From positions 1-34,669 of the IMG/VR virus record IMGVR_UViG_3300045741_000211: 34,669 nucleotides of DNA. One strand, 5' to 3'. Both the position numbers and the translations under genes were made by a program. Within the stretch, counting starts at the first letter, position 1. Each line of letters begins with the position of its first letter. Shown here in pieces: positions 15,166 to 26,257 of this stretch. The notes beneath the pieces were generated by a model, which worked only from the letters and a program-made list of their open reading frames with translations, ran no database searches and had not been told where the DNA came from. This DNA is from a virus.

Positions 15166-15491
15166 TTTTTAACTAAGTTTACTTTAATATTCATATTACC
15201 CGACAACTCTACTGCGTTAGTTTCTCTCCAGCCGCATTGGGTTTTAAGATAAAAGATCATTGCAACCATGTTGCCTTCAAGAGCCTTCTGCACAAGTTTG
15301 GCAGCAATAGCACCAGCTACCTTGGCCTTCTCGTCGTCTAGCTCTTTTCTAAAATGCTTCTCCAGAGTCTCTACGGTACATTCTATGACAGAAGCCATAA
15401 CTTTTTGAGTACAACCAGCCAAGGCCATACGCTTTACAAGTTGTCGTTCTTGCTCTGTGTAAATTCTAGGTTTAGGGCCAGGTTTTGCCAT
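15162..15491 (-). CDS. terS: Terminase small subunit
   Basis: A 109-residue protein that would recognise the packaging site and recruit the large subunit. The N-terminus is basic (AKPGPKPRIYTEQERQLVK), followed by a helix-turn-helix-like region (MALAGCTQKVMASVIECTVETLEKHF, about 27-52) and a helix with EGNMVAMIFYLKTQCGWRET, typical of phage small terminases of this kind. It overlaps the upstream methyltransferase gene by 20 nt and the large terminase by 4 nt. Confidence 0.85.
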   Translation of the reverse strand: MAKPGPKPRIYTEQERQLVKRMALAGCTQKVMASVIECTVETLEKHFRKELDDEKAKVAGAIAAKLVQKALEGNMVAMIFYLKTQCGWRETNAVELSGNMNIKVNLVKK

Positions 15492-16710
15492 TTATCTTAC
15501 ACTCAAAGGGCTTACCAGACTTTTCACAATAGGCTTTGTAACGGTCAACTATAACCTGACAGTATTTAGGCTCTATCTCCATACCATAGCATATTCTGCC
15601 GAGTTGGTCTGCTGCTATGAGAGTTGTGCCCGTTCCCATAAAAGGATCAAAGATAATTAAGCCGCCTAATATTTCAAGACATTCACCAGCAAATTTAACC
15701 GGCATTGTAGCCGCATGAATATCTGAAAACTCATTTGAATGCTGCGGATCGATGTTGATAACTGAGTTTTTAGTACCATGAAATGATGCAGTTTCAATAG
15801 CCCTAGATGGTGCATCTTTTGGGCTAAATAAAAATACAAATTCATGGTTAGTATTAACTACATTCTTTGCAGCGGCTGGCGCAGCCAGCCGCTTATTCCA
15901 AATGAAAACATCTACAAAATGATCACCAAACTCATGTAACCAATCTAAAACTGCAACCTTATTTCCCGCTAATATTTGTAAATTAATCGCGATTACTTTA
16001 CCAATTTTCAACATCCGACGTAAAAATTTACCAAGAAATTCACAATATTCATCTTGATCCATATTATCAGGAGTTGATTGATAAGAAGATTCGCCAACTG
16101 ATTTATTGGCTAATTTTACTGAAGAACCTCGATTATAAGGGGGTGAAGTAAATATTACATCAACATTGGGCCAAGAATATTCTTGAGTATTTAAACAGTT
16201 GCCGCACAACAATCTATGCTTACCAAACTGAATCTGATCACCATACTTGATAACCGTTTCAATCTTATCTAATTCTTCGGCCTCAAAATCATCCTCAACC
16301 ACCTCTGGCTCATCAACTTCCCCTAGCATCAAATCTTTAAGATTATCTAATCCCCACTTCTCCAAATCAAATCCCTGATCAATAAGATAATCAAACTCAC
16401 TAGCCAAAGAATCAAAGTCCCAGGTAGAATCATTCTGTAACTTATTGTCTAAGATTCGATAGGCTCGTTTATCTTTCTCAGCTAGCCCTTTGATATAGAC
16501 TATAGGAACTTCTTTTAGCTTAAGCAGTTGTGCTGCGTATAAACGACCATGACCGACTAAGATTTCATTGTTTTCGTCTATAACTATGGGCTGATTAAAT
16601 CCAAAGCTTTTTATAGACTCTGCTATTCTTGTAACTTGCTGTTCTGAATGAACTCTGTTGTTTTGTTGATAAGGTTTAATGAGGGAAATAGGTATGTTTT
16701 CTATTTTCAT
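15472..16710 (-). CDS. ParB-like N-terminal domain fused to a DNA methyltransferase
   Basis: I choose the ATG at 16710 (412 residues) because AAAGGA lies 5-6 nt upstream. The frame is open to 16797 but that extension looks unlike coding sequence. The first 110 residues are ParB/sulfiredoxin-like, with IPISLIKPYQQNNR, then VGHGRLYAAQ (52-61), the ParB nucleotide-binding motif. The C-terminal part is an amino-methyltransferase: catalytic SPPY (189-192) comes before the SAM-binding DPFMGTGTT (355-363), the order of the beta class, which modifies adenine N6 or cytosine N4. ParB-methylase fusions beside terminase genes are common in phages and may protect DNA from host restriction or mark it for packaging. 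No partner restriction gene is present. Confidence 0.9.
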   Translation of the reverse strand: MKIENIPISLIKPYQQNNRVHSEQQVTRIAESIKSFGFNQPIVIDENNEILVGHGRLYAAQLLKLKEVPIVYIKGLAEKDKRAYRILDNKLQNDSTWDFDSLASEFDYLIDQGFDLEKWGLDNLKDLMLGEVDEPEVVEDDFEAEELDKIETVIKYGDQIQFGKHRLLCGNCLNTQEYSWPNVDVIFTSPPYNRGSSVKLANKSVGESSYQSTPDNMDQDEYCEFLGKFLRRMLKIGKVIAINLQILAGNKVAVLDWLHEFGDHFVDVFIWNKRLAAPAAAKNVVNTNHEFVFLFSPKDAPSRAIETASFHGTKNSVINIDPQHSNEFSDIHAATMPVKFAGECLEILGGLIIFDPFMGTGTTLIAADQLGRICYGMEIEPKYCQVIVDRYKAYCEKSGKPFECKINGKTWP

Positions 16711-16856
16711 ATCTATCCTTTGATAGAGAAGGGTCATCCCCCTCTGCTGCTTTAGAACCAAGCCAAAGCAACTAGAATAAGTTATGTCATTCATCACTAC
16801 TTAGGATTCTCTAGTTCATTACTTATACGCTAGGTTTTTATAATTCCCAGCTTTAT

Positions 16857-23616: not shown

Positions 23617-23768
23617 GTAAAAAGCAAAAAAAATCAAAACGCAAAAATCCGGCTGATAATTTTAATGCCGATAATCCTTTAATAAAACTTCTCAAAAAGT
23701 ATGGTGTTATTCAATTTGGATCTGGTGGTCGAACTATTAAGCGTAGACTTAAATTTAAAAATGGTTAA
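23613..23768 (+). CDS. Small, very basic 51-residue protein
   Basis: ATG at 23613, overlapping the previous stop, ending inside the protease start (ATGGTTAA overlap of 8 nt). The N-terminus is a Lys/Ser cluster (MSKKQKKSKRKNPADNF) and the C-terminus is also basic (GRTIKRRLKFKNG). It could bind nucleic acid or be exported with the protease. Family unknown. Confidence 0.5.
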   Translation: MSKKQKKSKRKNPADNFNADNPLIKLLKKYGVIQFGSGGRTIKRRLKFKNG

Positions 23769-24327
23769 GAGTCTTATCTTTATCGTCTTTATCCTTGCTC
23801 GTGGCCCAGACTCGCTTAATCGTAATCAGATGGTAAATGTAGTTAGTAACGTAAGGCGACTATACCGGACTGTAGGTATAAAAATTATACCAGTTCGATA
23901 CATAGTAGCTAGGCGTGACCCAACTGCGTTTTTAGATAGTGCCTTATATGGCGCATTAGAGCGTAGAAGGTTCTGGGAGTTTTATTTAAGAAAGCATTAT
24001 CTAAAAGACAGCAGGGCACATAGGCATGTAGTATTACCGCCAGTACATTTTAATAAGGAGCTTTGGTATTATGGAGCAGCTACGGTTTGCAGTTATCGCA
24101 ACTATAATCCTTCTGTGGGTATTAGCAGCGCTACTATCAGTGACACTGCTCCAAGCACCACCGCTATAAAGTCTATGATTCCTATAGCTCACGAGATAGG
24201 ACACGCTATTGGGGCTAGTCATGACGATACTAATCACAATATTATGAACTCTGGCGCAGGGCAGTTTTGGGCTGAGCCGTTAGGGTTTAATGAGAACGCT
24301 TTAAGAGAGTTTGAGGAATGTTTATAA
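23761..24327 (+). CDS. Exported metzincin-type zinc metalloprotease
   Basis: I choose ATG at 23761 (188 residues) because it overlaps the preceding stop (ATGGTTAA) and gives a proper signal-like start (MVKSLIFIVFILARG). Upstream in-frame Met at 23701 lies in the preceding gene. The zinc motif HExxHxxGxxH is complete: HEIGHAIGASH (144-154), followed by a Met-turn candidate NHNIMNS (Met 162). This combination is diagnostic of the metzincin clan, and the H-x-D after the third His resembles matrixins and related small archaeal/bacterial proteases. The first 100 residues form a fold typical of a metzincin upper domain. No propeptide with a Cys switch is visible. Exported, it could act on periplasmic or cell-surface proteins. 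Confidence in the catalytic call is high, the target is unknown. Confidence 0.85.
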   Translation: MVKSLIFIVFILARGPDSLNRNQMVNVVSNVRRLYRTVGIKIIPVRYIVARRDPTAFLDSALYGALERRRFWEFYLRKHYLKDSRAHRHVVLPPVHFNKELWYYGAATVCSYRNYNPSVGISSATISDTAPSTTAIKSMIPIAHEIGHAIGASHDDTNHNIMNSGAGQFWAEPLGFNENALREFEECL

Positions 24328-24403
24328 TGTTGGGTAGCATAACTGGTAATGTGCCTGACTGTTAATCAGGAGTATGGGGGTTCGATTCCCTCCCCAACAG
24401 CCA
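24328..24403 (+). tRNA. tRNA-Asn (anticodon GTT), CCA encoded
   Basis: Full cloverleaf: acceptor TGTTGGG (24328-24334) pairs perfectly with CCCAACA (24393-24399). The D stem is GCAT/ATGT with the GG of the loop. The anticodon stem CCTGA/TCAGG holds loop CTGTTAA, anticodon GTT (Asn). The T stem is GGGGG/CCCTC with one G-U pair and loop TTCGATT. Discriminator G and encoded CCA end at 24403. It starts directly after the protease stop. Confidence 0.95.
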
Positions 24404-24481: not shown

Positions 24482-26257
24482 ATGCCAAACGCCAAAAGGT
24501 TCCAGCAACTCAGCCGAAATGTTTTTAAGATAACTATCCCTATAGTAGTCCGTAAGGATTGGGAGTCCTGGGTACTACTCACCTCAGACCAGCACTGGGA
24601 CAATCCTAAATCAAACCATAAGTTACAGCTAAAACATTTAGAGGAAGCAAAAGAGAGAGATGCTTCAATAATTTCTGCTGGAGATTTTTTCTGTGCTATG
24701 CAGGGGAAATATGACAGAAGGGCTAATAAGACAGCATTAAGGCCAGAGCATAGGTCTGATGACTACTTTGATTCTCTAATAGAGACAGCATCAAACTTCT
24801 TTGCCCCCTATGCTCATAATTTCTTTTTAATTGGTATGGGCAATCATGAAGCTTCTATCGTTGATAGGCATGAGACTAATTTAATAGAAAGATTAGTAGC
24901 GGTACTAAATAACAAAACCAAATCTAAAATTTTCTCCGGTGGTTTTTCTGGCTGGATAATTTTTACCTTTATGCGACATGACAATAAGCAGTGCGGCAGT
25001 ATCGTACTGCACTATGATCATGGCTATGGCGGAGGTGGCCCTGTGACGGCAGACATGATTCAGCATCAGCGAAGGTCTGTTTATCTTCCTGATGCTGACA
25101 TCATTCTTAGTGGGCACTGTTTTTCTGAAGATACCGAGATTCTTACGCCAGAGGGTTGGAAGTTTCATCAAGAGATTACTGAGCATAGCTGTGTAGCTAC
25201 GATGAATAAAACTAATAAAACACTGGAATGGCAGCAAGTTAATAGCATTTTTAAATATGACCATTTCAAAGAGATGCATAGTTTTGAGAACAGCAAAGTT
25301 AATTTACTTGTTACATCTGAACATGGAATGATTTTTGAAAAATATAGGGATAAAGAATTAGTAGAACTTCCCGCAAAAGATACTAATAAGATACCAGAAT
25401 TATGTTGGTTGCATGGAGCTTTGGATACAATCCCAGATTTTAATATCTGTGATGATACCCTTAGATTACTTACCTGGATTGTGGCTGATGGTTGTATAGA
25501 AGATGGCGGTATAAGATTCCATTTTTCTAAACAAAGAAAAATAAATAAAATTAAAAAACTTTGTGCCTCCTTAGACATTCCCTTTACTAGTCATGTCCAA
25601 AATACAGGTAATACAAAAATTAGAATTGGCGTAGCCTACGCAACTTCCTTTATTGACCTACTAGAGGGTGTAAAGGAGCTTCCTACCAGTTTCATTAAAA
25701 ACCTAAGCGGCAGACAGGCCCAGATAGTTTTGGAGGAATATCGTTTAAGTGATGGGCAGTTTGAGAATAGTGTTATTAGCTGGCAGCTTTATAGTTTTAA
25801 TAAACAAAATATAAATGTTCTACAAGCTTTAGCAGTAAAGGCGGGTTTTCGTGGTCTGTGCTCTAATGAAACTATTTTAAATATTTGTCCCAAGCATACT
25901 TCATTTGAAGCAAGAATAGAATCTAGGGTAGTGCCCTATTCTGGTATCGCTTGGTGTGTGAGTGTTCCCAATGGAACATTAATAGTACGGCGAAAAGGAA
26001 AGGCTGTCATAACACAGAACACACATGATAGTTGGATGAGAGAAATTGCTAGGATTAGGCTCACACAGCATGGGGGCTTAAAACAGGATGTCCAGACACA
26101 TTTAAAGCTACCTAGCTATAAAGATGACTATGTAGATGGGCATGGGGGCTGGGCTGTTACTAAGGGCTTTCCTCCCAAACCTCTTGGTGCATACTGGCTT
26201 AAATTTTCGTATGATGTAAAAGAGTCTAGGGTAGTTTATCAGATAGTGAAGGCATGA
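24482..26257 (+). CDS. Calcineurin-like metallophosphoesterase interrupted by an intein
   Basis: A 591-residue precursor. The host protein (290 residues after splicing) has the five metallophosphoesterase motifs: DQH (36-38), GDFF (67-70), GNHE (120-123), LHYDH (176-180), and a final GH-x-H. The last motif is split: G211-H212 ends the N-extein and T514-H515 begins the C-extein, giving GHTH after splicing. Residues 213-513 are an intein. Substrate could be DNA, nucleotide or phosphoprotein. It follows the tRNA and lies near the end of the early operon. Without splicing the last metal-binding His is displaced by 301 residues, so activity should depend on splicing. Confidence 0.88.
   Translation: MPNAKRFQQLSRNVFKITIPIVVRKDWESWVLLTSDQHWDNPKSNHKLQLKHLEEAKERDASIISAGDFFCAMQGKYDRRANKTALRPEHRSDDYFDSLIETASNFFAPYAHNFFLIGMGNHEASIVDRHETNLIERLVAVLNNKTKSKIFSGGFSGWIIFTFMRHDNKQCGSIVLHYDHGYGGGGPVTADMIQHQRRSVYLPDADIILSGHCFSEDTEILTPEGWKFHQEITEHSCVATMNKTNKTLEWQQVNSIFKYDHFKEMHSFENSKVNLLVTSEHGMIFEKYRDKELVELPAKDTNKIPELCWLHGALDTIPDFNICDDTLRLLTWIVADGCIEDGGIRFHFSKQRKINKIKKLCASLDIPFTSHVQNTGNTKIRIGVAYATSFIDLLEGVKELPTSFIKNLSGRQAQIVLEEYRLSDGQFENSVISWQLYSFNKQNINVLQALAVKAGFRGLCSNETILNICPKHTSFEARIESRVVPYSGIAWCVSVPNGTLIVRRKGKAVITQNTHDSWMREIARIRLTQHGGLKQDVQTHLKLPSYKDDYVDGHGGWAVTKGFPPKPLGAYWLKFSYDVKESRVVYQIVKA
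25118..26020 (+). mobile_element. Intein with LAGLIDADG homing endonuclease in GHTH motif
   Basis: 301 codons (precursor residues 213-513). Block A starts with Cys213 (CFSEDTEILTPEGW). Block B is VTSEHGM with Thr278 and His281. The endonuclease has two LAGLIDADG-type motifs: LLTWIVADG (329-337) and VLEEYRLSDG (415-424). Block F is YSGIAWCVSVPNG, and block G is KAVITQN before Thr514. The penultimate residue is Gln where most inteins have His, and the +1 nucleophile is Thr. DNA borders are 25118 and 26020. Confidence 0.9.

Follow-up and report, generated by a model that had tools for sequence, protein, structure and literature searches.

Metal ligands of the calcineurin-like phosphoesterase fold are provided by the DxH, GD, GNH(E/D), H and GHxH motifs. 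Inteins placed in the metallophosphoesterase (MPE) domain of phage proteins have been described in the RDF proteins of mycobacteriophages of cluster A1, e.g., Bethlehem gp51 (Kelley et al. 2016, PMC5050341), and this was the sole text on phage MPE-domain inteins found in the open-access literature, subscription papers being mostly outside of it.

In this study, a similar element was analyzed in a viral DNA stretch of 34,669 nucleotides (the complete IMG/VR record IMGVR_UViG_3300045741_000211, hereafter the window). Like the mycobacteriophage RDF inteins, it is a class 1 LAGLIDADG intein localized at a conserved metal motif of a phage MPE-domain protein, and its insertion point falls inside the last of the motifs listed above (GH/TH; a slash within a motif marks the intein boundary). 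We consider it very probable that, as a whole, this locus is best explained by a class 1 intein that invaded a phage MPE gene at GH/TH, splices, and spreads by homing. The first-pass annotation regarded such an insertion as not previously described. This is correct insofar as no description of a GH/xH intein site was found in the open-access literature (with the subscription papers again mostly outside), and both "GHTH" and "GNH" are absent from the main text of the above-mentioned paper (PMC5050341); it does not hold for inteins of phage MPEs in general, as these have been published. Phage MPE inteins are already known and the intein of the window is a good example of them, not new in principle, while the recurrent use of the GH/xH site is the more interesting part of the finding.

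The Intein-Bearing Phosphoesterase Gene and Its Family

The gene (positions 24482-26257, plus strand) is one open frame encoding a 591-amino acid precursor, followed by a stop codon. Its best match among the PHROG models is PHROG 7339, "DNA repair exonuclease" (E-value 4e-9, precursor residues 15-239), and a DNA-processing role of the enzyme, although a guess, would fit this annotation. The 212-aa N-extein (24482-25117, plus strand) contains the motifs D36xH38, G67D68, G120NHE123, and H180, as well as GH (residues 211-212), i.e., the first half of the last motif. The 78-aa C-extein (26021-26254, plus strand) starts with the +1 Thr, which is followed by the second metal-ligand His of GH-T-H. 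The extein thus carries all MPE ligand motifs, with a contiguous GHxH only after splicing.

The D-x-H, G-D, G-N-H-E, H, and G-H-x-H columns are invariant across the alignment of 41 intein-free family members, 25 of which are matched by Pfam Metallophos (best E-value 4.7e-7), while the window protein itself is unmatched. Judging from these sequence comparisons, the host protein is a calcineurin-like MPE, as had been proposed in the first-pass annotation; its own signal is weak when taken alone and the identification rests on its relatives. The extein family of phage proteins is large, with at least 547 relatives in IMG/VR; a few more come from genome assemblies of planctomycetes and Verrucomicrobium, and another is encoded by a Rhodobacteraceae phage (37.6% identity over 92% of the spliced query).

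Several other genes are also worth mentioning. A tRNA-Asn (GTT) gene (24328-24403) is localized directly 5' of the MPE gene. The ORF at positions 23701-24327 of the window shows a match to M12B/reprolysin-like metallopeptidases (HEIGHAIGASHDD; Pfam Reprolysin_5, E-value 1.6e-7), which is unusual in a phage, and a similar metallopeptidase-like ORF also adjoins the MPE gene in another contig (L001, 5386-5988). At positions 15472-16797 of the window, there is an N6/N4 DNA methylase fused to a ParB-like N-terminal domain.

The Insert as a Class 1 LAGLIDADG Intein

The 301-aa insert (25118-26020, plus strand; precursor residues 213-513, Cys1 to Asn301) begins with CFSEDTEILTPEGW and ends with KAVITQN. 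It is flanked by ...DADIILSGH and THDSWMRE..., giving the reading ...IILSGH/C...TQN/THDSW, with the insertion between GH and TH of the last metal motif. The N-terminal splicing nucleophile, Cys1 (25118-25120, plus strand), is invariant in the aligned GH/xH inteins, among which Cys was demanded at this position by the search pattern itself. Block B is TSEH (TxxH, intein residues 66-69; 25313-25324, plus strand), with T66 and H69 invariant in 15/15 aligned inteins. Two LAGLIDADG motifs follow: LLTWIVADG (residues 117-125; 25466-25492, plus strand; catalytic D124 at 25487-25489), recognized by its sequence, its aligned position and matches to the homing endonuclease fold, and VLEEYRLSDG (residues 204-213; 25727-25756, plus strand; catalytic D212 at 25751-25753), in which D212 and G213 are invariant in 15/15 inteins. 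Block F contains Trp279-Cys280 (25952-25957, plus strand), the Cys being invariant in the same 15/15, and block G is Thr-Gln-Asn301 (26012-26020, plus strand), with a penultimate Gln and a terminal Asn. The boundaries and length given in the first-pass annotation were exact to the base, and every motif that it had listed (Cys1, TxxH, the two LAGLIDADG motifs, the TQN/T end, and the penultimate Gln) is present.

A penultimate His is usual in class 1 inteins, but not obligatory. The insert has Cys1, the block B TxxH, the C-terminal Asn301, and the +1 Thr, while the usual His is absent, its position being occupied by Gln. Class 3 inteins are marked by the lack of a position-1 nucleophile and by W at B12, C at F4, and T at G5; this class was rejected, as Cys1 is present and B12 is Met, although the F4 Cys and G5 Thr do occur. 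The presence of two motifs, each with its catalytic acid (D124 and D212), assigns the nested domain to the LAGLIDADG homing endonucleases. On these grounds, the insert is classified as a class 1 LAGLIDADG intein with exact boundaries and predicted splicing.

The window contains a single occurrence of the motif pattern of the N-terminal junction, as compared to 0 in 100 shuffles, so it is not a product of chance. The PHROG models for ThyX, RNR, and PhoH-like proteins with inteins give alignments that begin exactly at the first residue of the intein or end at its last one. PHROG models thus match both the intein and the phosphoesterase, while Pfam and NCBIfam scans of the window protein gave nothing above the threshold for an intein or MPE domain; both parts are diverged and are missed by these two collections alone. 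Sequence searches of the PDB with the window protein and with a profile of the 41-member family gave no match, and neither did a search of a plasmid collection. Using tblastn, relatives that span 80% or more of the intein, at about 22-30% identity, were found in 344 phage records, within genes of RNR, DNA polymerase, primase, TerL, nucleotidyltransferase, RtcB, and phosphoesterase.

The AlphaFold2 model of the intein (built with 14 relatives) reached a pLDDT of 94.7 and a pTM of 0.92. In Foldseek searches, it matched the TliVMA (best, E-value 7.7e-17), PhoVMA, and PI-SceI inteins, and then stand-alone LAGLIDADG enzymes, including the I-DmoI fold; by these matches to solved inteins, the modeled splicing domain has the Hint fold. 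The precursor model has a pTM of 0.58, with the relative placement of its two domains not fixed, and the fold search with it gave only inteins among the matches listed. The G+C content of the intein (35.8%) is lower than that of the extein (41.7%), which fits an acquired element; the mean for the 25 window genes is 41.6% (sd 2.5%), and only 0.4% of same-size stretches of the window lie below the intein.

Predicted Splicing and Homing, and the Penultimate Residue

According to the known class 1 mechanism, the following course of events may be proposed. A class 1 LAGLIDADG intein would have entered the MPE gene at the codon after "GH" of the last metal motif. In the precursor, the His ligands lie 301 residues apart and no contiguous GHxH exists, so this form should be inactive. 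Cys1 would attack the His-Cys bond, the +1 Thr would take over the N-extein, and Asn301 would cyclise without the help of a penultimate His, after which the ligated enzyme would regain GHTH. The endonuclease, whose intact motifs point to homing on an intein-free allele, would cut such an allele at the DNA encoding the conserved motif. Since a metal ligand would be lost upon any imprecise deletion, the retention of the intein may be explained without any regulatory role.

A regulatory role was, however, suggested in the first-pass annotation, according to which the penultimate Gln may slow Asn cyclisation and make splicing conditional, so that splicing could time the enzyme. In such a case, the precursor would accumulate and would splice only under a certain condition (redox state or metal), the enzyme being timed in this way during infection. 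We consider this unlikely, although splicing may possibly time the enzyme. The split metal site would make activity dependent on splicing, Cys1 and the block F Cys could be redox-sensitive, and in the phage MPE intein studied previously the penultimate residue does tune the level of the precursor (Kelley et al. 2016, PMC5050341). However, this mycobacteriophage RDF intein splices completely with its native penultimate Gly, while the change of Gly to His slows splicing and makes the precursor accumulate (PMC5050341). Moreover, a penultimate His was found in 0 of the 48 related phage inteins compared. Among the 44 MPE inteins at GHxH or GNH, this position is occupied by Gly (35), Gln (6), Leu (2), or Met (1), and in the four other inteins compared it is always Gly. 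A residue other than His is normal here in phage inteins, so the Gln is no mark of special regulation, and the slowing of splicing by Gln is unsupported. There is also no sign of a trigger at the locus.

It is even less probable, in our opinion very improbable, that the intein is degenerate and has lost splicing, in which case the gene would be decaying and its enzyme dead. This could be argued from the absent penultimate His, as none of the last 36 intein residues is a His able to replace it, but the tested RDF intein, which also lacks this His, does splice (PMC5050341). Furthermore, the frame is open, the class 1 nucleophiles, the Asn, the TxxH, and both endonuclease acids are present, and all metal ligands of the extein are kept.

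Empty Sites in Intein-Free Relatives

Dozens of intein-free relatives align directly over the insertion point, with the exteins joined and an unbroken GH[T/V/I]H. This motif follows an HGxGGG motif at near-constant spacing, identical in 63 of the 66 scanned family members. The claim that the insert splits the final MPE motif is therefore borne out by the aligned relatives, in which the metal motif is intact, as had been predicted. The idea that the insert is a native phosphoesterase domain of 301 residues and not a mobile element, for which one may cite the open frame and the sharing of the insert by a few family members (L095 and L102), is refuted by these intein-free homologues and can be practically dismissed, the more so as relatives of the insert occur in RNR, ThyX, TerL, and other MPEs, its modeled fold is that of an intein, and some other family members have their intein at another motif.

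In the nearest relative (L001, IMGVR_UViG_3300025889_000862; MPE 68% identical), the contig stops six residues short of the intein site; this may be due to chance or to the assembly having broken at a polymorphic intein. The 1004-aa frame of L046 turned out to be merely an extended open frame with no intein.

Recurrence of the GH/xH Site

A family-based DNA pattern scan revealed inteins at the identical position in two more members of the MPE family to which the window protein belongs, i.e., L095 (GH/CFDEETEIL...VITQN/THDRW) and L102 (GH/CFDDSTEIL...VTMN/THDSF). In a general scan of IMG/VR, with a DNA pattern for GH/CxxxxTE[I/L/V]LT, inteins at GH/[T/S/C]H were found in other MPE-like genes (L121, L122, L123, L126, L128, L130, L132, L135, L137, L139, L141, L146, and L150), together with truncated copies (L129 and L148). 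GH/xH inteins are thus present in at least 12 phage MPE genes outside the family of the window, each rejoining to GH[T/S/C]H. A Metallophos match was obtained for 6/10 checked host genes, the others being assigned by the GHxH context and BLAST links between exteins. Several of the exteins show no mutual BLAST similarity. The scan also picked up inteins of ThyX and terminases; GH/C by itself therefore does not identify an MPE. GH/xH is a recurrent intein site in phage MPE genes.

One of these genes (L123, IMGVR_UViG_3300048672_001051, 1600-2046) contains a 149-residue mini-intein, GH/CVDMVTEIL..LTGN/THTPF, at the same GH/TH site; it is too short for an endonuclease domain and is possibly an endonuclease-less derivative.

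Searches of cultivated phages with five GH/xH genes gave no GH/xH MPE intein among the best matches. Two promising matches were rejected, as their inteins are localized in M15 peptidase-like genes. These are Bacteroides phage BF766P4 (L184, OP172679.1, 4947-6365; SDH/C..GN/C, Pfam Peptidase_M15_3, E-value 1e-15) and the crAss-like cr53_1 (L185, NC_055889.1, 30805-32310; SGH/C..GN/C), whose gene is annotated as "phosphoesterase" and, when read with table 11, contains in-frame stops. Both inteins are unannotated and sit at a His of the presumed zinc-binding motif, which is another split of a metal site.

Inteins at Other Metal Motifs and Their Relationships

Two further scans indicated about 30 contigs with inteins at GNH/C or GNH[D/E]/C, and at least seven of these GNH-site inteins belong to the window's own MPE family, where GH[I/V]H is intact. 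GNHE is followed by T or S in 33 of the 41 intein-free family members, and T occupies the x of GHxH in 21 of the 41; the corresponding residues of the window protein are Ala (after GNHE) and Thr (in GHTH). The three genes of the family with GH/TH inteins have the nucleophilic Thr, and the seven with GNHE inteins have Thr or Cys after GNHE. From the chemistry, it may be concluded that inteins of the family sit where a +1 nucleophile exists, as splicing demands, and the choice of the insertion site appears to be tied to the +1 residue.

Insertion sites cluster strongly on a tree built from 45 inteins, the GHxH site requiring 2 changes (vs. 12.7 in shuffles) and the GNH site 3 (vs. 14.2). A single clade of all GH/xH inteins is not rejected (AU p of 0.31 and 0.405), but the deep branches are weak and the inteins were sampled by sequence pattern. 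A single clade of the three GH/TH inteins of the window family is weakly rejected (AU p 0.028). The L102 intein groups with that of L121, which is a member of an RDF-like family (bootstrap 98-99). This grouping, together with the weak rejection, is suggestive of the movement of GH/xH inteins between MPE families. A single lineage specialised on GH/xH and crossing unrelated MPE families, with a separate lineage or lineages at GNH(D/E), is a tentative interpretation, to which we assign somewhat less than an even chance. If it is true, the choice of the target follows the metal-binding active-site motif more than the particular gene.

Comparison with Known Systems

The VMA inteins TliVMA, PhoVMA, and PI-SceI (PDB 7qsu, 7qst, and 1vde) share with the modeled window intein the Hint fold with a nested LAGLIDADG endonuclease, but differ in the host protein and the insertion site, and are about 12% identical to it. 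The mycobacteriophage RDF inteins also have a penultimate residue other than His (Gly, as compared to Gln in the window), but the RDF extein represents a different MPE family and the inteins are distant (26% identity). In BPBiebs31 gp52, a relative of Bethlehem gp51, the site is GNHD/C..TGN/S, i.e., motif III, and not GH/TH. The same motif is used, as GNH/C..TGN/C, by the phosphoesterase intein of Rheinheimera Barba phages (e.g., NC_048189 and MT497226), which is 28% identical to the window intein over its full length. Another site, the GD motif (GDE/C..SGN/C), is occupied in an MPE-like protein (Pfam Metallophos, E-value 4e-4) of Proteus phage RS1pmA (MG575418). The inteins of the phosphoesterase-type genes of the last two phages (L005, MT497226.1, 39527-40996, and L007, MG575418.1, 10857-12770) are unannotated in the public records, and many MPE metal-motif inteins are likewise unannotated in viral contigs.

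In phages, inteins therefore occupy at least three of the phosphoesterase metal motifs (GD, GNH, and GHxH), which makes the MPE inteins a natural set for analyzing how inteins choose active-site motifs and move between them. Within this set, it is the GH/xH inteins of uncultivated IMG/VR phages that have an insertion point and catalytic residues identical to those of the window intein, while being 24-36% identical to it and residing, except for L095 and L102, in different extein families.
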